Source of the DNA: Paracoccaceae bacterium | GTDB lineage: Bacteria; Pseudomonadota; Alphaproteobacteria; Rhodobacterales; Rhodobacteraceae | Direction of reading: 5' to 3' | Length of the DNA stretch: 58,487 bases | NCBI GenBank assembly: GCA_029243395.1 | Contig: JAQWSE010000006.1 | Coordinates: forward strand, 1 to 58,487 | Shown: in pieces, positions 20,658 to 32,545 of the stretch | Position numbering within the stretch: the first letter of the stretch is position 1 | Layout of the letters: each line of letters begins with the position of its first letter | The notes under the pieces: generated by a model | Told to the model about the DNA's origin: nothing | Database searches by the model: none | The model's input: the letters and a program-made list of their open reading frames with translations, nothing else | Made by a program: the position numbers and the translations under genes

Positions 20658-21656
20658 TTGGAACAGAATTCTAATATACTTGTAACCGGAGGAACGGGAT
20701 CTTTTGGTTCTAAGTTTATTCCACTTACACTAAAGAAATACAATCCAAGCAGACTAGTAGTATTCTCTCGTGATGAAATGAAGCAGTGGGATATGCAAAA
20801 AGCCTATGAAGATGATCCTAGAGTTAGGTTTTTCATTGGTGATGTCAGAGATCGTGAAAGGTTAATGCGTGCGTTGGATGGTATCGATTATGTCGTACAT
20901 GCTGCTGCCACTAAGATAGTGACAACAGCTGAATACAATCCATTCGAATGTGTTAAGACTAATGTTCTTGGCGCAATGAATGTGATTGATGCCTGTCTTG
21001 ATAAAAATGTAAGAAGATGCGTGGCTTTATCTACAGATAAAGCTTCAAATCCGATAAATCTTTATGGAGCAACGAAATTAGCTTCGGATAAAATGTTTGT
21101 TGCAGGGAATTCTTACTCAGGCTCTTCGAAATGTAAGTTTGCCGTTGTACGCTATGGTAATGTCATGGGATCTCGAGGTTCAGTTATTCCTTTTTTTCTT
21201 TCCAAACAAAAGGATGGTTATTTGCCAATAACTGATAAGCGAATGACAAGATTCATGATTACTCTTGAGGAAGGAGTCAGATTAGTTTGGAAAGCTTTTG
21301 AAGATATGGAAGGTGGTGAGATTTACGTAAAGAAAATCCCATCGATGAAAGTTGTAGACATTGCTTCCGCCATTAACCCAAAGCTTGAACACAAGGTAGT
21401 TGGTATAAGACCCGGAGAAAAGCTTCATGAACAGATGATTGGTTCAGAGGATGCTACCTTTACTTATGAGTATGCCGACCACTACAAAATATTTCCAGCA
21501 ATTCATAATTGGTCTAAGGACAAAGCCAGAATTAAGGGAGGTAAGAAGGTACCACAAGATTTTGTTTATGCATCAGACAGCAATTTAGAATGGCTTAGCC
21601 AGGAAGAATTTAGCATATGGCTTTCTAATAATCAGGAGCATATCGGTAAATACTAA
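20658..21656 (+). CDS. pseB: UDP-N-acetylglucosamine 4,6-dehydratase (inverting)
   Basis: A 332-residue short-chain dehydrogenase, the first step of CMP-pseudaminic acid synthesis (UDP-GlcNAc to the 4-keto-6-deoxy-L-arabino sugar). It shows the Rossmann motif GGTGSFGSKF, VFSRDEMKQWDMQ (a PseB/FlaA1 hallmark), and STDKASNPINLYGATK containing the Asp-Lys and Tyr-Lys catalytic residues of the inverting class. RPGEKLHEQMI near the end is also conserved. The likely start is TTG, with AGAGG upstream. Its stop overlaps the pseC ATG by one base. Confidence 0.95.
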   Translation: MEQNSNILVTGGTGSFGSKFIPLTLKKYNPSRLVVFSRDEMKQWDMQKAYEDDPRVRFFIGDVRDRERLMRALDGIDYVVHAAATKIVTTAEYNPFECVKTNVLGAMNVIDACLDKNVRRCVALSTDKASNPINLYGATKLASDKMFVAGNSYSGSSKCKFAVVRYGNVMGSRGSVIPFFLSKQKDGYLPITDKRMTRFMITLEEGVRLVWKAFEDMEGGEIYVKKIPSMKVVDIASAINPKLEHKVVGIRPGEKLHEQMIGSEDATFTYEYADHYKIFPAIHNWSKDKARIKGGKKVPQDFVYASDSNLEWLSQEEFSIWLSNNQEHIGKY

Positions 21657-22789
21657 TGATACCTTACAGCCGACAAAGTATTAATGAGCAGGATATTGAA
21701 GAGGTTATAAAGGTTTTAAGATCTGACTTAATTACTCAAGGTCCTATTAATAAAAAGTTTGAGGAAGAAATTTGTTCCTACACGGGTTGTAAGTATTCTG
21801 TAGTAACTAACTCTGCTACTTCCGCCTTACATTTAGCTTGTCTAGCTCTTGGATTAGGGCCAGGCGATATACTTTGGACTTCTCCAAACTCTTATGTTGC
21901 ATCTGCAAATGTTGGTCTTCTTTGCAATGCTGAAGTTGATTTTGTAGATATTGATTCCAAAACTTATAACATGTGTGTAAAGTCTCTAGATAAAAAATTA
22001 AGAAAAGCAGAAGTTGATGGTAAGCTGCCCAAAATAGTTATGCCCGTACATTTTGCCGGGCAATCCTGTGACATGATTTCTATAAAAAAATTAGCTGAAA
22101 AATATGGTTTTAAGATTGTTGAGGATGCGTCTCATGCCATTGGTGGAAGGTATAATGGGGAACCAATAGGATCTTGTTCATTTTCTGACATTGTAGTTTT
22201 TTCATTTCACCCAGTTAAAATTATTACTACAGGTGAGGGCGGCTCCGCACTTACTAATGATTTGCTTCTATTGGAACGCTTAAGGCTCATGTGTTCCCAT
22301 GGTGTGACTCGTGATCCCAGTAAAATGGTAACTAAGTCAGGAGATGCATGGGTTTACGATCAAATAAGTTTGGGGTTTAATTTTCGAATGAGTGATTTAC
22401 ATGCGGCATTAGGTTTGAGTCAACTGAAGAGAATAGACCAATTCATCAGAAAAAGGAATGAAATTGCTAAGAGATATGATGAAGAATTAAGTCAACTAAA
22501 TTTAAAACTTCCTTTCCGCGATTTTGCCAATCCTTCCTCCCTTCATCTTTACCCTATTCAGACTAACCAAAGGGGAAGAGTTTTCAATTTATGCCATAAA
22601 GAAGGAATAAAAGTGAATGTTCATTATAAACCTATACATATTCAACCCTTTTGGCAGAAAAAAGGCTTTTTGCCTGGTGATCACCCCAATTCTGAAGCTT
22701 ATTACTCAAATGCTATAAGTCTTCCAATTCATCCTGAACTATCGGATGAGCAGCAAGAGAAAGTGATAAAGGTACTAAAGTCTATTTGA
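21656..22789 (+). CDS. pseC: UDP-4-amino-4,6-dideoxy-N-acetyl-beta-L-altrosamine transaminase
   Basis: A 377-residue DegT/DnrJ/EryC1 aminotransferase, the second step of pseudaminic acid synthesis. The PLP Lys is K188 in SFHPVKIITTGEGG. The N-terminus IPYSRQSINEQDI is typical of PseC, and VEDASHAIGG supplies the conserved Asp contacting the cofactor pyridine. It is translationally coupled to pseB (TAATG). Its 3' end overlaps the converging 497-residue gene by 8 bp, so the locus is split into two converging transcripts. Confidence 0.95.
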   Translation: MIPYSRQSINEQDIEEVIKVLRSDLITQGPINKKFEEEICSYTGCKYSVVTNSATSALHLACLALGLGPGDILWTSPNSYVASANVGLLCNAEVDFVDIDSKTYNMCVKSLDKKLRKAEVDGKLPKIVMPVHFAGQSCDMISIKKLAEKYGFKIVEDASHAIGGRYNGEPIGSCSFSDIVVFSFHPVKIITTGEGGSALTNDLLLLERLRLMCSHGVTRDPSKMVTKSGDAWVYDQISLGFNFRMSDLHAALGLSQLKRIDQFIRKRNEIAKRYDEELSQLNLKLPFRDFANPSSLHLYPIQTNQRGRVFNLCHKEGIKVNVHYKPIHIQPFWQKKGFLPGDHPNSEAYYSNAISLPIHPELSDEQQEKVIKVLKSI

Positions 22790-24275
22790 GAGTAGTAAAA
22801 GTTACTTCTTTTTCCTTTAGAATTAGGTTGGTTAAGATTTTGGCTGTATTAATCTTGTTCGTTTTTAAATCATAATTTTCAACCAAACGGGTGTAGGCTC
22901 TATCTATGACACCCTTATGGGCCCTTTCAATCAATCGACCGAATGCTATAGAAATATCATTCTTCTTCGGGATGTTATTAATAATTTTTTCAAAAGAAAT
23001 ATGTTTAGAAAATTCAGTTACACCAGGAAAATCTTTGTACCAAGCATGCCCAAAAACCAATACACTTTTTCCAAGACAGAGAGATTCCCATCCCACGGTA
23101 CCAGTAACTGTAGCTATGAAAAGAGCTTTTCTTGTGAGTTCATTAGTATCTGCAAATGAAGGAACAAACGTAACTGATTTAATTCTCGATATCCTGTGAA
23201 AAAACAAGGGGCCTCTAGCAAAAGAACCTTGTTTAGGGTTTTCTTTAACAAATATTTTAACGCCCTTAGGCAAGATCTTTGATAGATGTTCGAGTGCTAG
23301 CAGTTGATCTCTATATGCGCCACCAATAGCTGAGGTGGTCATTTCAGGTTGCATTGGTAGGGGGAAATACACAAATCTTTCATTTAAGTCAAAATTAGTG
23401 GTTTCAAATTCCGCTAAGTGTTCAAAATAAGCAAGTTCATTTACATGAAAAAAATTTGCAAAAGGATCACGCCATTTTGGAAAACTCTTATATATCTTAT
23501 GAATTCTAGTTAGAATTCTTGACAAATAGATAGGACGGAAAATAAGCCTAGGGTTCTTAAAAAAAATGAACAGTATCAAGTTGATTATTGTTTTAACATT
23601 CACTCTTCCATTATTTTCTGCCTTTTGTTTGATCTTTTTCATGTAAAATAATTCTAGTTCCGGGATTTTTGGAGTTTTTTTTCTGACAGAGACCTTGGCA
23701 TTATTGATCTCACCATAGTGTTCAACATCTCTTAGGGAAAAGAAATTGTTGGGGAAAAGAGACTGGGTCACGATAGTTGTTTCAATTTTCAGAGACCGAG
23801 CAATTTGGTAAATTATCGTGTCATATGCAAGATGCGGAATATTGAAGAAAAGGACATGGTCAATATCATTAGCAAGCATTTTGTCTGCCATAGCGTCTGT
23901 CAAGATATGATAATAATCTAGATAGTCCTGAAGATTCTGAAGGTTATGAGATTTATACCTATAAGCATTTGAATGTCGAAAGAGTTGGTCAACAAGTGTT
24001 TCCAGGTCTTTTCTGAAACTTTCAGAAGCCATTAGTTGAAGATCAACTCCGGAATACTTTTTAGATTCATTAAAAAGATGCCCAAGTGATCCAGGCTTTG
24101 CATTCATCCTTACTAGAGAAGATGCCTTAAAGTCACTAGCCGAGTCGCCGAGGTGTAATTTTAGCAAAATTTTATCCTGCGAACTCTTAATTAACTCTGA
24201 GAGTATTTCATTTGTATTTTTTGCTGTAGAAACTGCCAAAAGATTGATCGGTTTCACATTTTGATTTTCTCCCAA
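22782..24275 (-). CDS. Putative capsule-synthesis-like glycosyltransferase of the nonulosonate locus
   Basis: A 497-residue protein I do not recognise confidently. Its C-terminal half looks like a GT-B nucleotide-binding domain of the KpsS/capsule-synthesis type: VYFPLPMQPEM, GVKIFVKENPKQG and ATVTGTVGWESLCLGKSVLV followed by FGHAWY. The N-terminal half is charged, with a hydrophobic patch near INLILFIFF, and no signal peptide. Being last in the minus-strand pse operon, it is a natural candidate for the transferase that uses the CMP-sugar, or for capsule polymer synthesis (inference). It lacks the features I associate with the flagellin-modifying Maf family. The ATG overlaps pseI by 22 bp. 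Confidence 0.55.
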   Translation of the reverse strand: MGENQNVKPINLLAVSTAKNTNEILSELIKSSQDKILLKLHLGDSASDFKASSLVRMNAKPGSLGHLFNESKKYSGVDLQLMASESFRKDLETLVDQLFRHSNAYRYKSHNLQNLQDYLDYYHILTDAMADKMLANDIDHVLFFNIPHLAYDTIIYQIARSLKIETTIVTQSLFPNNFFSLRDVEHYGEINNAKVSVRKKTPKIPELELFYMKKIKQKAENNGRVNVKTIINLILFIFFKNPRLIFRPIYLSRILTRIHKIYKSFPKWRDPFANFFHVNELAYFEHLAEFETTNFDLNERFVYFPLPMQPEMTTSAIGGAYRDQLLALEHLSKILPKGVKIFVKENPKQGSFARGPLFFHRISRIKSVTFVPSFADTNELTRKALFIATVTGTVGWESLCLGKSVLVFGHAWYKDFPGVTEFSKHISFEKIINNIPKKNDISIAFGRLIERAHKGVIDRAYTRLVENYDLKTNKINTAKILTNLILKEKEVTFTTLK

Positions 24276-25306
24276 CTTAAGGGCTCTCCTTTACTCAGGT
24301 TAATCTTTGCGCTTTTGCCGATGATATCATTTAAGTATTTTGGAGGAATCCCCATCCCTGGCCTTATTGATCTTACGTTTGTTTCGTTTAGAAGTTCTCC
24401 AGCCTTAATATCTTTTGTGACAAAGAGAGATCTTCGAAATATGGCATTAGATTTTTTTATACCAGGCCTATTGTCATATCCTTGTGATAAGCCTTCATAG
24501 GCACTACTACAGTCTTCAACAAGTCTTTTGAACTCTTCTGGTTCAAGTGAGAAATCAGCATCCGGTCCACCGTCAGATCTGTTAAGAGTAATGTGTTTCT
24601 CTATGATGGTAGCTCCCAATGCTATTGAGGCAATTGCCATTGTCGAACCCAGTGTATGATCAGACAAGCCAATTGGCACTTTAAACTTTGCTTCCAATTC
24701 GTTAATTGTAGCAAGCCTCATGTCTTTTGGTTGAGCGGGATATTCAGAAATACAATGTAACAAGGCATAACCATCTGCGCCAGCATTCTTAGCAGCAATA
24801 CAAGCATCATTAATCTCTTCAAAATCGGCTACTCCTGTGGACATGATCAAAGGCTTACCCTTACTTGCAGCTTTTTGTATTAGGGGTAGGTCTACTAACT
24901 CAAAGGAAGCTATCTTAAAAGCTGGTGAAGATAGTTTGTCCAAGAAGTCCACTGCAGACTCATCAAAAGGAGAAGAAAAACAGTGAATATTTTTCTTTTC
25001 TGCATAGTTAAAGAGAGTTTCATGCCAGTTCCATGGAGTGCTAGCCTCACTATAAAGTTCATAAAGATTTCTACCAGCCCAAAGACCACTTTTTATCATA
25101 AATTCTGGCCGATTGGAATTAATTGTAATGGTGTCAGCAGTGTAAGTTTGCAATTTTATGGCGTTAGCCCCTGCATCTGAAGCGGCATCGATTAATCTTA
25201 TAGCTCTATTGATGTCACCATTATGATTCCCTGACAATTCAGCAATTATGTAAGGTGGTGAATTAGATCCTATTGTGACATTTTTTATTTTAATATTATT
25301 TTTCAC
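24254..25306 (-). CDS. pseI: Pseudaminic acid synthase
   Basis: A 350-residue NeuB-family enzyme that condenses the free 2,4-diacetamido-trideoxy hexose with phosphoenolpyruvate to give pseudaminic acid. Marks are IAELSGNHNGD, AIKLQTYTADTIT, the PseI-specific SGLWAGRNLYELYSEASTPW (versus NeuB/LegI), MSTGVADFEEI, EKHITL and a C-terminal SAF/antifreeze-like domain (RRSLFVTKDIKAGE). The start codon is GTG with a weak ribosome-binding site. It sits between the PseG-PseH gene (14-bp gap) and the putative glycosyltransferase. Confidence 0.95.
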   Translation of the reverse strand: MKNNIKIKNVTIGSNSPPYIIAELSGNHNGDINRAIRLIDAASDAGANAIKLQTYTADTITINSNRPEFMIKSGLWAGRNLYELYSEASTPWNWHETLFNYAEKKNIHCFSSPFDESAVDFLDKLSSPAFKIASFELVDLPLIQKAASKGKPLIMSTGVADFEEINDACIAAKNAGADGYALLHCISEYPAQPKDMRLATINELEAKFKVPIGLSDHTLGSTMAIASIALGATIIEKHITLNRSDGGPDADFSLEPEEFKRLVEDCSSAYEGLSQGYDNRPGIKKSNAIFRRSLFVTKDIKAGELLNETNVRSIRPGMGIPPKYLNDIIGKSAKINLSKGEPLSWEKIKM

Positions 25307-25320
25307 GTGTGCTTCTTGGT

Positions 25321-26910
25321 TTAATATGGTCTATAAAATCGACATTCGAATTTTGGCCTTGATAGACTATAAGTAGAGTATTCTTTACTTTTGTTTATGC
25401 AAGAAAATCCAAGATGTTGATGGATGAGTTTTGATTTTAGATTTTGATTTAAAACCTTGGCATTGATAGTTTTGATTCCTTTCTCGTAGAAAAGTTTTTT
25501 AAGGAAAAAAGCCAGCATTCTTTTGCCAGAACCTTTGGAAAAACTATTTTCGCCAATATAAAAGCTCCAGAAAACTTCATTCTTCGAGATAAAAACTGAA
25601 TTACAATGGCCAATTTCTTCATTGCCTTCAGAATATATCAACCAGATTCCTTTTAAAACATTTTGTGTCTTTTGCATCCATTTTCTGTGTTCTTCTTCAG
25701 ATAGAGTTTTCTTGTCAAGACTCATTTCTCTGACAAATGACTTATTGCGCCATGTCAATAGCTTTCTTGAATCTGTGATCTTAACAGATCTCAGGTTAGC
25801 TTCTAAGAAATCCATCACTCTTTTTGCGCCGAAACCATCACACAAATCCTTTGAATTTTTTGAGAGTTTTTTCAAGATTTCAGGAGAATTAACCAGATTA
25901 CTTACAGTATCATAGAGATTTTTCTTACTTTTTGCTTGGGTAATAGTTATAATTTTAGCAGCTTTAATTTTTTTTAGTTCCTTAGTTAGATTTCTTTGAT
26001 TTTGGGCGATTGAAATCGTTAAAGTAGGAAGTCCCATGCAGCACCTTTCCCAAGTGCTCATTCCAGTAGCTCCTATACAAAGATCAGCTTTAAGCATCAA
26101 AAAACTTATGTCGGATTTATCTAGGTGCAGGTTTATGTTTGCGTATACCTTTGCTAATCTTCTTACTTGTGAAAGGGTTTGGCTATCTGAAGACATTGCG
26201 ACATCAATCTGCACGTTTTCTATTATAGCAGTAGCCCTTAACAAATAAGGCATGATTTTTTTGGGATCGTACATGCCTACCGAAATCAGGATGCAAAATT
26301 TCTTGCCAATACAATTCTTAGATTGTCTTATAGATCTTTCCAAAATGCTTTGAGTTCTTAGCTCTCTGAAATTTTTTGTGAGTAATGTAAACGTTGGACC
26401 TTCCAGAAAGGCTACACTTTTATATTTTCTTTTTCTTTTGCGTAGAGAAGTTTGGTCTAATAAAAAATCAGCACCTAGGTTCCTATTGTCCAGATCATCT
26501 ATAGCGAGGAAAGACACCCTAATTAAATTTTTCCTTACTATATTTACCCATTCAAAATCCAAAGCATAATTGTCAAAAATTACCCAATTCGGTTTGAAGT
26601 TCTCCAAAACTTCTCTTGTACCTTTAGCATCCTGTGTTTTGGGTAGTTCTAACCAGTTCCCATAAACGCTATAGCTCTCGGGCTTCAGTATCTTTTGTGT
26701 CTTTGCTGACGGTTCAAGGACTTTGTAGTTAAAGCCTGAAGTTTTCAACATTTGGCGTAGTTTCAGGGGTAAGGAGGTTGAGATAAACAAGGTTGTATGT
26801 CCACGCGCCTTAATTTCTTCTGCTAGGCTAAAACATCTTCTAAAATGACCTCCCCCTATTTGGTCATTAGCATCGACCCGTATAGCAATTTTAAGTGGAT
26901 TTTTTTGCAC
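25321..26910 (-). CDS. pseG-pseH: PseG-PseH fusion: UDP-sugar hydrolase plus GNAT N-acetyltransferase
   Basis: A 529-residue bifunctional protein. Residues about 1-350 are PseG/SpsG-like: RVDANDQIGGGHFRRC with catalytic His22, a VIFDNYALD segment, and GATGMSTWERCCMGLP in the GT-B-like C-terminal lobe; PseG releases UDP from the diacetamido sugar. Residues about 367-520 are a GNAT domain (LLTWRNKSFVREMS, FYIGENSFSKGSGKRML containing the acetyl-CoA loop), matching PseH, the 4-amino N-acetyltransferase. The two reactions are consecutive (acetylation then hydrolysis), so fusion may channel the intermediate. Separate genes are the norm in Campylobacter and Helicobacter; fused forms are known. Confidence 0.92.
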   Translation of the reverse strand: MQKNPLKIAIRVDANDQIGGGHFRRCFSLAEEIKARGHTTLFISTSLPLKLRQMLKTSGFNYKVLEPSAKTQKILKPESYSVYGNWLELPKTQDAKGTREVLENFKPNWVIFDNYALDFEWVNIVRKNLIRVSFLAIDDLDNRNLGADFLLDQTSLRKRKRKYKSVAFLEGPTFTLLTKNFRELRTQSILERSIRQSKNCIGKKFCILISVGMYDPKKIMPYLLRATAIIENVQIDVAMSSDSQTLSQVRRLAKVYANINLHLDKSDISFLMLKADLCIGATGMSTWERCCMGLPTLTISIAQNQRNLTKELKKIKAAKIITITQAKSKKNLYDTVSNLVNSPEILKKLSKNSKDLCDGFGAKRVMDFLEANLRSVKITDSRKLLTWRNKSFVREMSLDKKTLSEEEHRKWMQKTQNVLKGIWLIYSEGNEEIGHCNSVFISKNEVFWSFYIGENSFSKGSGKRMLAFFLKKLFYEKGIKTINAKVLNQNLKSKLIHQHLGFSCINKSKEYSTYSLSRPKFECRFYRPY

Positions 26911-26920
26911 TTTTTAGGCC

Positions 26921-28963
26921 TCAATTCAGTCTATGAAAACCTTCATGACATACTGATCCCTCAATTAATTTTTCAACATTGAGTTTTTGGTTTTCACAAT
27001 CTGCGATAAGCCCAAATACCTTGCTTAATTCATTTGAGTAATTATCAATTATATCTGGTTTGTGTGCTACGGTACTATATATTGCATTGCTAGTCAGGAA
27101 ATGCTTCTTTAGCATTTCCTGTGTGATCAGAGTTTTATACTTTAGATTATTCTCACTACAAAATTTATAAGAGGACAAAGAAGGTATTCCTGAAATTTCA
27201 ATTTTTAGGCCATGCGTGGTTGCTAAATCTTTCCATATGCTCTGTATCTTGTTTCCTATCTCGGTAATTATATGCCATGTTTGATCTCTTTCCATAATTT
27301 CCAAGGTTTTCAAAGCTGCCGTAACCCCTATTCTTTCAGTCCAAAAAGTACTACTGATAAAGCTATTCTGTGCTTCTTCCATGACAATTCGACTTCCTAA
27401 TATAGCTGTAATAGCATAGCCATTTCCTAATGCTTTACCAAAAATGGCTAGATCTGGGTTAACACCATATTTGAGGTGTATTCCTCCAAAGTTTTCTCTA
27501 AAGCCTGATGTGCATTCATCAAAAATTAAAAGTAACCCATTTTCGGTAGCCAGCTGTTTTACGGATTTGAGAAAGTTTTTGTTTGGTTGTTTATTTCTAG
27601 TTACCTCCATTTTTATGACACCAATATCATTTTCAGCAACTATTTTTTTTAAGCCAGCTATGTCGTTATATCTAAATGGAAATGTGGTATTTTTTAGGGC
27701 TTTAGGTACACCATTAGTAGGTAAACCTGGGAGCAAATGTTCCTTCAAGCCGTCATGAAAACTCAGATTAGTTGCGAGATACCAGTCATGCCAACCATGA
27801 TATCCACAGATGGCAACACCGTCTTTACCAGTGGCTGCACGTGCAATTCTTATAGCGATGGAGTTTGCTTCTCCTCCAGTTCTGGCAAATCGAGCCATTT
27901 CTGACCATGGATGCATACTAATCAATTTTTCCGCCAGAAACACCTCTTCAGGGCAATTCAGAGTACTCATATTACTTTTATCGATGTTACGCTTTACTAC
28001 TTGATCGACTTCTTCGTTTGCATAACCCAATATATTAGTGCCTACGCCCATCAAAGACATGTCAGTATATTTTTTGCCATCGAGATCCCAAATCATACAT
28101 CCTTTAGCCTTTTCGAAATAGGCAGGCCAGTTATCTGGATGAAATAATTCTGTCCTTTTTGACAACAACATATTCCCTCCTGGTATTATAGTTTTAGCTT
28201 TTGTCCAAAGTTTCTGGCCACTACTCCTGGTAGAGCCCTCATTTCTAGTCAAATGGGCATTTTTTTCAAAGATACTGGGACTTTGATCATACAAGTTGAT
28301 TATCTCTTTTAATGTGAAATCTATTCTAGGGTGAAAATGTTTTACTATTGAAGATATAACTTCCAAGTCTGAATTCTCATCTAAAGTTAAGCGCAATTTG
28401 GATAGATTTTTTGAGGCCTTTAAATTAGCTTTGGTGTAATGTTTATTTTCGCGTATGAATGATGTTACATGCTCGAGGTGCCTAATTTCTAATGAACATT
28501 CTGACAATCTTTCCAGACATTTTCGATCTATTACTTCCACATCCATACCATCTGGAAAAGAAGGAGGATCAATGTTGCTAGCATACATTACATTTGCACT
28601 TTTGTAGGCTTCTATCACTTTGTCGACTACAACTGAGTCAATTAATGGACAATCGCCAGTGATCCTAACAATGGTTTTTGCGACGGTTTTTTGAATAGCG
28701 TCTATGTAACGTTGAAGGACATTATTTTCACTTCCTCTTGAACAGTGGAAGCCCAGATTTGTTACCATTTCATAAAGGCTATCATCCGCAGGATTAATAG
28801 AAGTAGCCACAACAATTTCATCAATTAATTTACTTTTTTGAAGGCGTTTCAATAGTAATTCTAACGAGGGCATGGTCCCAATTTTTTTAAGAACTTTACC
28901 AGGTAATCTAGAGGAATTCATTCTGGCCTGTACTAGAGCAACTATGTTTTGTTTTGGTTCCAT
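26921..28963 (-). CDS. SpsF-type cytidylyltransferase fused to class III (GSA-aminomutase-like) aminotransferase
   Basis: A 680-residue two-domain protein. Residues 1 to about 240 form a nucleotidyltransferase with the SpsF signature VQARMNSSRLPGKVL and RITGDCPLID, rather than the PARGGSKRIP start of classical PseF/NeuA. Residues about 250-670 form a fold-type I class III aminotransferase resembling glutamate-1-semialdehyde aminomutase: TGGEANSIAIRIARA, GYHGWHDWY, FDECTSGFRENFGG, and the PLP Lys510 in FGKALGNGYA. Position in the pse operon suggests CTP activation of the nonulosonate plus an additional amination or amino-shift. Its ATG overlaps the preceding aldo/keto reductase gene by 22 bp. 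The precise substrates are unknown. Confidence 0.85.
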   Translation of the reverse strand: MEPKQNIVALVQARMNSSRLPGKVLKKIGTMPSLELLLKRLQKSKLIDEIVVATSINPADDSLYEMVTNLGFHCSRGSENNVLQRYIDAIQKTVAKTIVRITGDCPLIDSVVVDKVIEAYKSANVMYASNIDPPSFPDGMDVEVIDRKCLERLSECSLEIRHLEHVTSFIRENKHYTKANLKASKNLSKLRLTLDENSDLEVISSIVKHFHPRIDFTLKEIINLYDQSPSIFEKNAHLTRNEGSTRSSGQKLWTKAKTIIPGGNMLLSKRTELFHPDNWPAYFEKAKGCMIWDLDGKKYTDMSLMGVGTNILGYANEEVDQVVKRNIDKSNMSTLNCPEEVFLAEKLISMHPWSEMARFARTGGEANSIAIRIARAATGKDGVAICGYHGWHDWYLATNLSFHDGLKEHLLPGLPTNGVPKALKNTTFPFRYNDIAGLKKIVAENDIGVIKMEVTRNKQPNKNFLKSVKQLATENGLLLIFDECTSGFRENFGGIHLKYGVNPDLAIFGKALGNGYAITAILGSRIVMEEAQNSFISSTFWTERIGVTAALKTLEIMERDQTWHIITEIGNKIQSIWKDLATTHGLKIEISGIPSLSSYKFCSENNLKYKTLITQEMLKKHFLTSNAIYSTVAHKPDIIDNYSNELSKVFGLIADCENQKLNVEKLIEGSVCHEGFHRLN

Positions 28964-29823
28964 AATCTAGGGTCAATCAATTCTGTTTCTAAATCAGAAC
29001 CCCATTTAGGTTCTTCTTCTATAGGTGGTTTGCTAAAATAATGAAAAATTTCCTTCAGATGTAAAGTTGAATTCACTCCAATAACAATCTTATCAATACC
29101 TTGAATCGAATTTACAAAGCGAACACATGCCTCAACGGGGGTTAGTTTTTGTGAGCTTAACCATGATTTCCAATTTTGCCAAAAATCTTTAAATCTTGCG
29201 AACTCGACCGGTATATTCTCAGTGGCATATGTTAGCAAGCCCTGAAGAAAAATTGATCTTATATGCACCTCTATTCCCATATTGGAAATATCATGCAAAT
29301 ATTTATTTTTTAGCAATCTTTTGTCAACAATATTAACTGGGCATTGCACAATTTCAGGTTGAAAAATATTTAAAATAGTTTCCAAATCTTTTTTTTCATA
29401 GACTGACACGCCAATTTTTCTTGTAACCCCATTTTTCTTAAGGTCTTTCAATGACCATAGTAATTCTTTGCCATATTCCCCAACAAAATCTTTGGGGTTA
29501 TGGATTAAAATAGCTTCAAACATAGAGACGCCTATTTCTTGAGCCGATTGACTAATACAATGCTTAACCCAGTCATTTACGTCATTGATGCCATTAGGAA
29601 TTTTCGGTATTTTTGTTATGACTTTCCAATCTTCAATTCCTATAATACCTAGTCTTTTTGAGCAATCGCCATAACTAATAGCCGTGTCCAAAGTCTTTAT
29701 TCCTAGTCTTTGGGCAAACTGAAGGATCTCTTTAGTGGTTTGTTCTGAGAGCCTTCTTGAATCCATTCCTTGTCCATAATTCATACCAAAATTCGCTGTA
29801 CCAATAACTAATTTATTTTCCAT
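28942..29823 (-). CDS. Aldo/keto reductase family oxidoreductase of the nonulosonate locus
   Basis: A 293-residue TIM-barrel NAD(P)-dependent oxidoreductase with the full family tetrad: Asp46 and Tyr51 (TLDTAISYGD), Lys71 (VITKIPK) and His108 (AILIHNPKD). The C-terminal cofactor segment includes KIVIGVNS. It is the first gene of the minus-strand operon, preceded by a good promoter, and overlaps the start of the cytidylyltransferase-aminotransferase gene. Such reductases occur in other SpsF/pseudaminate-like loci. A role in oxidising or reducing a hydroxyl of the sugar before or after amination is inference. Confidence 0.87.
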   Translation of the reverse strand: MENKLVIGTANFGMNYGQGMDSRRLSEQTTKEILQFAQRLGIKTLDTAISYGDCSKRLGIIGIEDWKVITKIPKIPNGINDVNDWVKHCISQSAQEIGVSMFEAILIHNPKDFVGEYGKELLWSLKDLKKNGVTRKIGVSVYEKKDLETILNIFQPEIVQCPVNIVDKRLLKNKYLHDISNMGIEVHIRSIFLQGLLTYATENIPVEFARFKDFWQNWKSWLSSQKLTPVEACVRFVNSIQGIDKIVIGVNSTLHLKEIFHYFSKPPIEEEPKWGSDLETELIDPRLWNQNKT

Positions 29824-30754: not shown

Positions 30755-32545
30755 TTAAACTATCACAAGGTGTTCAAATGTGATTGTGTTTGTAGTAATG
30801 CCTACCAATGACATACAAGTGTCGCTGGACCCATCTCCATCACTATCATAGAACAGTAAGCTAAAGCCATCCGTAGCAGTCGCCACATTGTAGGAAAAGT
30901 AATAGGTCTTTCCTGAACTCATTGCCGTGTTAGCCTTTGAAAGGGCATCGGAAAATGAAGTCGCACCAGTTTCTGAAACAAAATTGTTGGCATTTGATGT
31001 AATTGATCCAAAACCAATTTTATCAGCGGTTGGATCGAAATTTATTATTTTGTCAGCTATTATAGAAGCATGACTATTAGCTGATCCATCAATAGTCAAA
31101 ACATTCGTACCTCCAGGTTGAACAACATCTATGCCTTTGAGGCTAGATAAAGTTATAATATCAACCCCATCACCACCCCTTATGTCGGCATTTCCTGTCG
31201 CATTAGCTGCTATTGAAATAGTGTCGTCTCCTGCTCCACTAATTACTTTACCTGAACCAACTCCCAATGAAACTTGATCATTTTGGTTTGTAGTGGTCAC
31301 ATCTACAATGCCTTTGAGAGCAGAAAAATTTAGTGATATTCCTTTTTTAGACATGCTACTTGCATCTATATTCACAGTTCCATCACCTGAAAAACTACCG
31401 ACGTTCATATCGCCAGCTCCACTAAGAGTGAAATCCACAATTGCTTCCTCAATTGTTGTGTTCCCAATATTGATAGATGAGAATTCTGTTCCGCTAACAA
31501 TAATACTATCGATTTTCTTAGCATTGATTGAACCGATATTGATGGGCGCTCCCTTTGTGGCCATAGCAAGGCTCAAAAGGTTGTCCACAGGGGTTGAGCC
31601 CCCTAAATCCCCAATAGTGATGGTACCAGTTTCAGAAGCATCTATAGCTATCGAGCTTAGTTTTTGCAAATCAGGAAGACCAGAAGTTCCAGGAGTACCT
31701 AGAGTTATATCTCCATCATTCCATGTAGTTAAGGATATGGTTCTTAGTGCTGTTGTTCCAGTTAGGTCAGTAGCAGCAGCAATGATTATATTGCCATCAT
31801 TGTCATTATCAATTTCAATTCGTTGGGTATCTTCAGGATCCAAATTTAGTAAAGGTATGGTGACAGGTTCATTGCCGGAGTTTTTAAATAGTAATTGACC
31901 AGCTTCGTTGAGAGTTAAAGAGGTAAGATCAACAGACGCCCCTGAGTTATTGATCCAATCAAAATAGAGAACAGCAAAGCTATTTGGCTTAAAGTCTATA
32001 GTCCAATCGCCTGATTGAGTTTCCTTAACAAAAATTTTCTCAATATCTGTAGTCAAACTTGTAAGGTTAACGCCAGCTGTTGAATTACTGATAGAAATAT
32101 TCTTGACGTCTGTTACATTTGTAAAGTCCACTGTACCAGCTGCTGAAAAAGTAAAATCAAGTAGGGGATAGCCGCTTATAATGGGGCTAGCCACAACTGC
32201 GCCAGTTACTTCTATTGGTAAGCTATTTGATCCATCTCCAGTTGAAGATAAAGGAGTGGTTGAGCTTATTGTATAAGGATTAGTAATAGATGGATTTTCT
32301 TGAAAATGTTTCTCTATTCCCTCAGAAGCTGCATTGCCAGCTAAACCTAAGAGCTTTTTGTTATCATTGTTGCAAGCTGTTAGAAGTAACGGTGCCGTCA
32401 ACCAAGATTTTCTTACAAAGATATTTTTTTTCCTGATCCTCCAAAGCATATTCTGCTTAGCTTTGTTGGTTTTATCTAAGGACTCAGAATTTAAAGCCTT
32501 TTTTACGCTCCAGGAACTATATAAACTTGCTTTTATTGCACCCAA
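30755..32545 (-). CDS. RTX-like repeat surface protein with N-terminal lipobox
   Basis: Up to 596 residues from a TTG; an ATG at 32449 (residue 33) is an alternative start. The segment WLTAPLLLTAC ends in a good lipobox (Cys58 in the long form). Then come about 360 residues of low-complexity Ser/Thr/Ile/Asp-rich beta-type sequence, likely a beta-helix or stacked beta-strands. Residues about 435-475 have RTX-like calcium motifs (GAGDDTI, GGDGVDII), followed by FDPTADKIGFG and a Ca-loop-like DSDGDGSSD near 567. The C-terminus resembles type I secretion substrates. The protein should be surface-located or secreted; it has almost no Cys. Function unknown: S-layer, sheath or adhesin are options. 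It lies alone between convergent and divergent neighbours. Confidence 0.6.
   Translation of the reverse strand: MGAIKASLYSSWSVKKALNSESLDKTNKAKQNMLWRIRKKNIFVRKSWLTAPLLLTACNNDNKKLLGLAGNAASEGIEKHFQENPSITNPYTISSTTPLSSTGDGSNSLPIEVTGAVVASPIISGYPLLDFTFSAAGTVDFTNVTDVKNISISNSTAGVNLTSLTTDIEKIFVKETQSGDWTIDFKPNSFAVLYFDWINNSGASVDLTSLTLNEAGQLLFKNSGNEPVTIPLLNLDPEDTQRIEIDNDNDGNIIIAAATDLTGTTALRTISLTTWNDGDITLGTPGTSGLPDLQKLSSIAIDASETGTITIGDLGGSTPVDNLLSLAMATKGAPINIGSINAKKIDSIIVSGTEFSSINIGNTTIEEAIVDFTLSGAGDMNVGSFSGDGTVNIDASSMSKKGISLNFSALKGIVDVTTTNQNDQVSLGVGSGKVISGAGDDTISIAANATGNADIRGGDGVDIITLSSLKGIDVVQPGGTNVLTIDGSANSHASIIADKIINFDPTADKIGFGSITSNANNFVSETGATSFSDALSKANTAMSSGKTYYFSYNVATATDGFSLLFYDSDGDGSSDTCMSLVGITTNTITFEHLVIV

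Follow-up and report, generated by a model that had tools for sequence, protein, structure and literature searches.

We analysed a 58,487-nucleotide stretch of Paracoccaceae bacterium DNA (contig JAQWSE010000006.1, positions 1 to 58,487; hereafter the window), and in it a nonulosonate (NulO) locus built around a gene for an aldo/keto reductase (AKR) and a gene for an SpsF-type cytidylyltransferase fused to a class III aminotransferase. Open reading frame (ORF), Pfam and NCBIfam calls bear out the layout described by a first-pass annotation of the DNA letters, in which the AKR gene overlaps the fusion gene upstream of PseG-PseH and PseI (Table 1). The order on the minus strand is AKR, fusion, PseG-PseH, PseI and a Capsule_synth-family protein, with PseB and PseC convergent on the plus strand. 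The AKR stop codon lies among the opening codons of the fusion gene, and with the annotated ATG as start the overlap is 22 bases. PseB, PseC, PseG and PseI all score above their curated NCBIfam cut-offs, and the PseH domain, at the C terminus of the PseG fusion, scores below its own. We saw no separate PseF in a CTP_transf_3 search of the window's own genome (completeness 97.94; E ≤ 0.001). The fusion is the sole candidate seen for NulO activation, because the remaining CTP_transf_3 proteins in that genome are KdsB and GlmU.

Table 1. Positions of the genes and domains discussed, in the window unless a locus is named
Feature	Position	Strand	Evidence
Aldo/keto reductase (AKR), NulO-locus subfamily, 293 amino acids; predicted NulO C8 alcohol oxidase	28942..29823	-	Pfam PF00248 Aldo_ket_red, 75.8 bits
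SpsF-type cytidylyltransferase + class III aminotransferase fusion, 680 amino acids	26921..28963	-	Pfam
Fusion, cytidylyltransferase domain, about residues 1-235; predicted CMP-NulO synthetase replacing PseF	28259..28963	-	CTP_transf_3, 93.1 bits, residues 8-176
Fusion, class III aminotransferase domain, about residues 245-680; predicted to form the C8 amine	26924..28231	-	Aminotran_3, 121.8 bits, residues 279-585
PseG-PseH fusion (UDP-sugar hydrolase + GNAT N-acyltransferase)	25321..26910	-	TIGR03590, 211.2 bits (cut-off 153.55); TIGR03585, 59.1 bits (cut-off 93.1)
PseI, pseudaminic acid synthase	24254..25306	-	TIGR03586, 474.9 bits (cut-off 340.25)
Capsule_synth-family protein	22782..24275	-	Pfam PF05159, 33.9 bits (cut-off 20)
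PseB, UDP-GlcNAc 4,6-dehydratase (inverting)	20658..21656	+	TIGR03589, 525.9 bits (cut-off 407.75)
PseC, UDP-sugar 4-aminotransferase	21656..22789	+	TIGR03588, 502.4 bits (cut-off 423.5)
Adjacent AKR and aminotransferase proteins with one SpsF-type domain each	L027:8375-12016
Adjacent AKR and aminotransferase proteins with one SpsF-type domain each	L067:3337-7067
Adjacent AKR and aminotransferase proteins with one SpsF-type domain each	L061:8439-12037

Both domains of the fusion look like intact enzymes, with their presumed catalytic residues conserved. An AF2 (AlphaFold2) model of the protein, computed from 37 family members, reached a mean predicted local distance difference test score (pLDDT) of 86.5 and a predicted template modelling score (pTM) of 0.69. 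In Foldseek comparisons the N-terminal part matched a Leptospira cytidylyltransferase (6oew; TM-score 0.92 by target length, root-mean-square deviation 2.0), and the C-terminal part was matched first by FumI, practically tied with structures of glutamate-1-semialdehyde aminomutase (GSAM); the first ten matches shared 24–27% identity. When the best-scoring domain was taken from each locus, aminotransferase residues G363, G364, E365, Y388, D482, K510 and T539 were identical in 81/81 aligned rows (80 related loci, described below, and the window). By analogy with GSAM, we take K510 to be the Schiff-base lysine, D482 to face the pyridine nitrogen, and T539 and Y388 to be among the phosphate and stacking residues. 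Residues R14, S17, R19 and K23 of the cytidylyltransferase are kept in 77/78 rows (one gap) and D104 in 78/78, and D46, Y51, K71 and H108 of the AKR, presumably its Asp-Tyr-Lys-His catalytic tetrad, are kept wherever covered (69–70 of 71 rows, the remainder gaps). The aminotransferase domain shares its fold and presumed pyridoxal phosphate (PLP) residues with GSAM and FumI, and differs from them in being fused to a cytidylyltransferase and in falling below the GSAM cut-offs. GSAM-like models gave 188.5 of 527.3 bits (hemL) and 238.1 of 486 bits (PRK06209), so far under the curated thresholds that assignment as an ordinary GSAM is unsupported. FumI, as we understand it, acts on a CH3-CH(NH2)-R amine, which is the local structure expected at C8-C9 of an 8-aminated sugar. 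For the N-terminal domain, passages of PMC7439481 support SpsF of Bacillus subtilis as a putative cytidylyltransferase of the legionaminate pathway.

The fusion occurs widely. Scanning genome contigs yielded at least 589 pattern matches, of which at least 583 were relatives, so that a one-off or chimeric gene can be rejected; the best 80 were kept as loci L021–L100. Record titles among these 80 name Alpha-, Beta- and Gammaproteobacteria, Pelagibacteraceae, SAR86, SAR116, Prochlorococcus, Synechococcus, Chlorobium, Bacteroidota, Verrucomicrobia and others. One gene encodes both domains in 66 of them, two adjacent genes do so in 11, and in three the aminotransferase has no neighbouring SpsF-type domain. 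Within the genus of the window, seven of 12 genomes (the window's included) carry the full-length fusion, and an eighth, G005, has a C-terminal piece at a contig end. Similar arrangements occur further afield: a Pseudosulfitobacter plasmid record reads pseB, pseC, AKR, GNAT, hypothetical protein, fusion, pseG, pseI; a divergent fusion from the same class (L185, 33% identity) lies in the order PseB, PseC, AKR, fusion, PseG/PseH, with PseI farther on; and a plasmid record of the archaeon Halorussus (L020) holds the SpsF-type and aminotransferase proteins as separate genes.

The first-pass annotation had asked whether the fusion keeps company with a NulO synthase and the AKR, and among these best 80 of at least 583 relatives it does. 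In the 77 loci with enough upstream DNA to score (three were not assessable), the AKR is present in 71: directly adjacent in 64, at most 6 kb upstream in four, and elsewhere in the locus in three, two of which overlap a start-extended fusion ORF and one of which is on the other strand. The same 13-base overlap recurs in 22 of the 64 adjacent pairs. A NeuB-family synthase accompanies the fusion in 61/80 loci and in 39/43 loci of at least 20 kb, where a location mostly outside NulO-synthase loci would have counted against the annotation's proposal. PseI-type synthase, PseB and PseC occur together in 25/43 of these long loci, with both PseB and PseC beside the aminotransferase in 25 of the 27 whose synthase is PseI-type by a home-made 425-bit line, a line that misfiled at least L074 (NCBIfam PseI, 396.7 of 340.25 bits). 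A PseH-like GNAT match is found in 23 of the same 27 loci and two such matches in seven, a duplication that would fit a further amine in need of acylation but does not prove one. A separate sample from the family of Polaribacter (L087) gave the aminotransferase in 11/397 genomes, L087's own counted, and the 10 further neighbourhoods, one of which is the L088 genome again, hold a NeuB-family synthase (10/10), a cytidylyltransferase domain (10/10) and the AKR (9/10). Judged by sequence, AKR and fusion are a recurrent, conserved NulO module.

What the AKR might do is suggested by a system from Acinetobacter baumannii prophages. Passages of PMC12053666 describe EpaA, a protein of 542 amino acids with CTP_transf_3 at 5-192 and Aldo_ket_red at 239-525, and EpaB, a short-chain dehydrogenase/reductase (SDR) with an adh_short_C2 domain; with epaA and epaB introduced, capsule Pse5Ac7Ac becomes its 8-epimer, 8ePse5Ac7Ac, by nuclear magnetic resonance after complementation. 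Oxidation and then re-reduction at C8 would be the natural mechanism. The window resembles this system in combining an SpsF-type cytidylyltransferase domain with an AKR in a pseudaminate locus, next to a second enzyme that would finish the conversion, C8 being the position changed by EpaA/EpaB. It differs in that the second enzyme of the prophages is an SDR giving the 8-epimer, whereas the window's partner is a PLP aminotransferase, and in that the cytidylyltransferase domain is fused to the AKR there, whereas in the window the two are on separate, overlapping genes. Among the nine scanned locus proteins we saw no SDR-superfamily protein besides PseB, and no EpaB-like partner. Vibrio may offer a parallel: passages of PMC7371886 report a cluster that encodes a cytidylyltransferase-AKR protein and a dehydrogenase. 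The PseAc2 linked to this cluster fragments unlike that of Moritella, and its authors propose that this sugar could be an epimer or could bear its N-acetyl groups elsewhere. That fragmentation fits an SDR, epimer-forming branch.

Within one AKR subfamily, the partner enzyme appears to be exchangeable. In an AKR-centred sample from the order of Marinobacter, 16/293 genomes carry the AKR (the centre, L034, counted), and all 16 neighbourhoods hold PseB- or PseC-like genes. Its companion is the fused cytidylyltransferase-aminotransferase in six (L142-L146, L150), separate cytidylyltransferase and aminotransferase genes in three (L151, L153, L154), and an EpaB-like SDR (306–310 bits) in another three (L155-L157), where the AKR is itself fused to a cytidylyltransferase domain in proteins of 539–543 amino acids. 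Two more (L148, L149) have a Gfo/Idh/MocA gene, a weaker SDR match (117 and 134 bits) and a PseF-like cytidylyltransferase; no partner was seen in L152, and the contig of L147 ends too early. The SDR profile was built from the SDRs of three plasmid records, one (Priestia) with AKR and SDR and two (Marinovum, Maritalea) with a cytidylyltransferase-AKR protein and SDR. On plasmids L101 and L103 the cytidylyltransferase-AKR and SDR pair lies beside NulO genes, as the same pair does in the pse operons L155-L157, and the SDRs of L101, L102, L103 and L155 carry the adh_short_C2 domain. L148 and L149 lack the SpsF-type domain, and their PseF-like cytidylyltransferases score 176 and 182 bits against a cut-off of 205.7; a PseF-like gene where the SpsF-type domain is missing is as expected if that domain replaces PseF. 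Loci L027, L061 and L067 have an AKR bearing its own cytidylyltransferase domain directly beside the cytidylyltransferase-aminotransferase fusion (Table 1). The putative oxidising and aminating enzymes therefore both occur on one chain with an activating domain, an arrangement linking both steps to the activated sugar.

A tree of 55 AKRs (42 from NulO loci, four KidO or KidO-like, and nine other AKRs of the window's own genome) places the NulO-locus and KidO rows in one clade against the nine others, with support of 100/99. Five EpaA-like rows, EpaA itself not being in the tree, form a branch of their own (100/99) inside a larger clade (100/99) that includes the window's AKR, and the AKR of L148 nests among AKRs that otherwise have an aminotransferase as partner (95/81). 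A separate observation concerns KidO: the Caulobacter-type regulator nests within the NulO-locus clade (rows L115-L118; 99/96), as if it were a recruited NulO enzyme. The contig of the KidO-like L117 also carries a NeuB-family synthase and a cytidylyltransferase domain (L188), and L118 lies beside a cytidylyltransferase gene (L189); the two KidO above cut-off had no synthase or cytidylyltransferase neighbours in the neighbourhoods read (L186-L189). In viruses, the window AKR had no match in the phage collection, and a search of viral contigs with the Marinovum and Maritalea cytidylyltransferase-AKR proteins, looking for EpaA, gave 65 pattern matches and no relative. Two viral contigs, L122 (4199-7748) and L123 (3-3332), hold consecutive genes for Gfo/Idh/MocA, cytidylyltransferase, PseB-like and aminotransferase proteins.

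We consider it probable that the module aminates a NulO at C8. By family assignment, PseB, PseC, PseH, PseG and PseI would make a 5,7-diamino-3,5,7,9-tetradeoxynonulosonate. The AKR would oxidise its C8 hydroxyl to a methyl ketone (8-keto-NulO), the class III aminotransferase domain would transaminate this ketone to the 8-amine, and the SpsF-type domain, standing in for the missing PseF, would form the cytidine monophosphate (CMP) sugar, with oxidation and amination coming either before or after activation. The predicted product is a CMP-5,7,8-triamino-3,5,7,8,9-pentadeoxynonulosonate. If the AKR supplies the 8-ketone, then with the SDR swapped for a PLP aminotransferase the outcome would be an 8-amine. 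We infer the activities of all three domains and their order from gene content and analogy, and the C8 position from the EpaA/EpaB precedent together with a known 8-amino-NulO. The first-pass annotation had drawn the same sequence of oxidation, transamination and cytidylylation, most simply at C8, from Shewanella, where the C8 alcohol of Kdo is oxidised by KdnB and transaminated by KdnA before CMP activation, giving 8-amino-Kdo. KdnB is an iron-type alcohol dehydrogenase and KdnA a DegT-type aminotransferase, their substrate is the primary alcohol of Kdo, and no such fusion is known there; the likeness is one of described steps, and the enzyme families as described differ. The annotation's proposal now gains support from EpaA/EpaB, the exchanged AKR partners and the known 8-amino-NulO, for a chemistry that is itself predicted.

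The extra-aminated sugar proposed in that annotation is likewise favoured, with the correction that the sugar type is already known and that the fusion is widespread and not special to this genome. Passages of PMC3210612 report 5,7-diacylamido-8-amino-3,5,7,8,9-pentadeoxynonulosonic acid, its C8 configuration undetermined there, in the O-polysaccharide of Flexibacter (Tenacibaculum) maritimus; it is of the type predicted as the window module's product. The gene order has a counterpart in the group I flagellin islands of Aeromonas (subgroup IA), which according to passages of PMC7874193 contain pseB, pseC, an "alpha/keto reductase", pseF, a class III aminotransferase, pseG and pseI. The cytidylyltransferase and aminotransferase are described there as separate and the extra island genes are called modifiers of functional groups, in general terms; the likeness is one of description and not of compared sequences. 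In the open-licence literature searched, we found no printed function for the module or for genes of 8-amino- or triamino-NulO biosynthesis.

Outside this case stands a hint from Aeromonas hydrophila AH-1, whose flagellin, according to passages of PMC4691044, bears a 403 Da pseudaminate-like glycan with a formula without nitrogen as the authors' top choice. An odd nominal mass corresponds to an odd nitrogen count, as in a triamino sugar, and 403.159 would fit an 8-N-glyceroyl form; the data look low-resolution, and the acetamidino form is an isomer of 8-amino-Pse5Ac7Ac (315.143). The passages on AH-1 do not place it in the island subgroup with the AKR and aminotransferase.

Several observations weigh against amination of pseudaminate at C8. 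The 80 loci are the best-scoring relatives and not a random draw. Six of the 77 assessable loci lack the AKR: a Gfo/Idh/MocA gene lies directly upstream in L100 and downstream on the other strand in L080, and L082 has a NAD-binding protein about 1.2 kb upstream, whereas no substitute oxidoreductase was seen in L081, L083 and L096. The AKR is absent from L182 as well. Halorussus L020, also without AKR, has a Gfo/Idh/MocA oxidoreductase directly upstream of its cytidylyltransferase and aminotransferase genes, as in L100; in these two loci the neighbouring oxidoreductase speaks for the proposed reading. A NeuB-family synthase match is missing in four of the 43 long loci, in 20 of the 61 synthase-bearing loci the synthase lies solely below the 425-bit line, and of 10 synthases run against NCBIfam, eight reach neither the PseI nor the NeuB cut-off; the scaffold is therefore not always pseudaminate. 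EpaA was compared by its published domain layout and not by sequence. Of the five AKR loci with an SDR, two (L148, L149) show weak SDR matches only, the same two are among the three AKR-plus-SDR rows of the tree, and the aminotransferase loci L142, L143 and L153 have SDR matches of 98–110 bits as well, at a greater distance from the AKR. Pairing of AKR with the cytidylyltransferase-aminotransferase requires eight changes on the AKR tree, so relatedness among AKRs does not by itself predict the type of partner; we read these scattered labels as partner exchange, function not being assignable from the tree alone. Finally, C4 of a NulO also carries a free hydroxyl.

This last point leads to a variant in which the same module and chemistry oxidise and aminate the C4 or another hydroxyl to give a different triamino NulO. 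The C4 hydroxyl is the other free one of pseudaminate, and sequence does not fix the position; yet the cytidylyltransferase-AKR and SDR pair tied to a product by experiment alters C8 in the passages of PMC12053666, and the extra-aminated NulO found in the literature has its amine at C8 in those of PMC3210612, making amination elsewhere fairly unlikely. The first-pass annotation had also raised an aminomutase-like shift, in which a GSAM-like class III domain would move an existing amine to the neighbouring carbon. The nearest curated families are indeed GSAM-like and GSAM structures share the top of the fold list with FumI, but the scores fall far short of the curated cut-offs. In the known pathway, moreover, PseH acylates N7 before the nine-carbon sugar forms, which would leave no amine for a PLP aldimine, and a PseH-like GNAT is present in most long PseI-type loci (above). 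We disfavour the shift because N7 is normally acylated by then, and regard it as very improbable.

Two alternatives remain. AKR and aminotransferase could together make an unusual amino- or hydroxy-acyl group for N-acylation of pseudaminate, the fusion serving co-expression only. Such a role is conceivable, since NulOs carry many kinds of N-acyl group and omega- or beta-amino acids are frequent products of class III aminotransferases; against it, AKR and aminotransferase are each fused to SpsF-type domains side by side in three loci, and the counterpart cytidylyltransferase-AKR and SDR pair modifies a carbon of the sugar itself in the passages of PMC12053666. We give this little credence. Still less credible is replacement of PseC, by which the aminotransferase would aminate the UDP-4-keto sugar in PseC-less loci: five of the 43 long loci do have PseB and a NeuB-family synthase without a PseC match above 400 bits, but both PseB and PseC accompany the aminotransferase in the window and in nearly all long PseI-type loci, and the AKR would be left without a role. 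C8 amination by AKR and fusion is the reading we retain.

Other features of the locus are less closely tied to this question. The Capsule_synth-family gene overlaps PseI by 22 bases, and its product is a possible transferase for the CMP-activated sugar. Near the AKR end, a protein of 596 amino acids (30755-32545), possibly a surface protein, has no Pfam or NCBIfam match. Scans for promoters and terminators gave counts at or below shuffled background. Elsewhere, the NeuB-family synthases that accompany the module in L036, L043, L055, L060, L090, L031 and L045 are below both the PseI and NeuB cut-offs, often with PseB and without PseC; this group perhaps represents a different 9-deoxy scaffold that also receives an 8-amine.

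A broader possibility, to which we give an even chance, is that 8-keto-NulO is a shared branch point: one AKR subfamily would make the 8-ketone, an SDR would turn it into the 8-epimer and a class III aminotransferase into the 8-amine, and 8-amino-NulOs would then be common and largely unrecognised. If this is true, they would be common surface sugars of marine bacteria (Pelagibacteraceae, Prochlorococcus, SAR86 and SAR116), of Bacteroidota and of some haloarchaea, on both the pseudaminate-type and a second NulO scaffold. The module would provide a specific gene set for the 8-amino-NulO sugar class, and its presence could help predict NulO structure from genomes, because it is found in groups as far apart as Pelagibacteraceae, Prochlorococcus, Bacteroidota and, in one case, a haloarchaeon. 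Masses of flagellin glycans merit a fresh look, for example in Aeromonas strains with group I islands. A free amine at C8 would make the sugar zwitterionic and should alter its recognition by lectins, phages and immune receptors.

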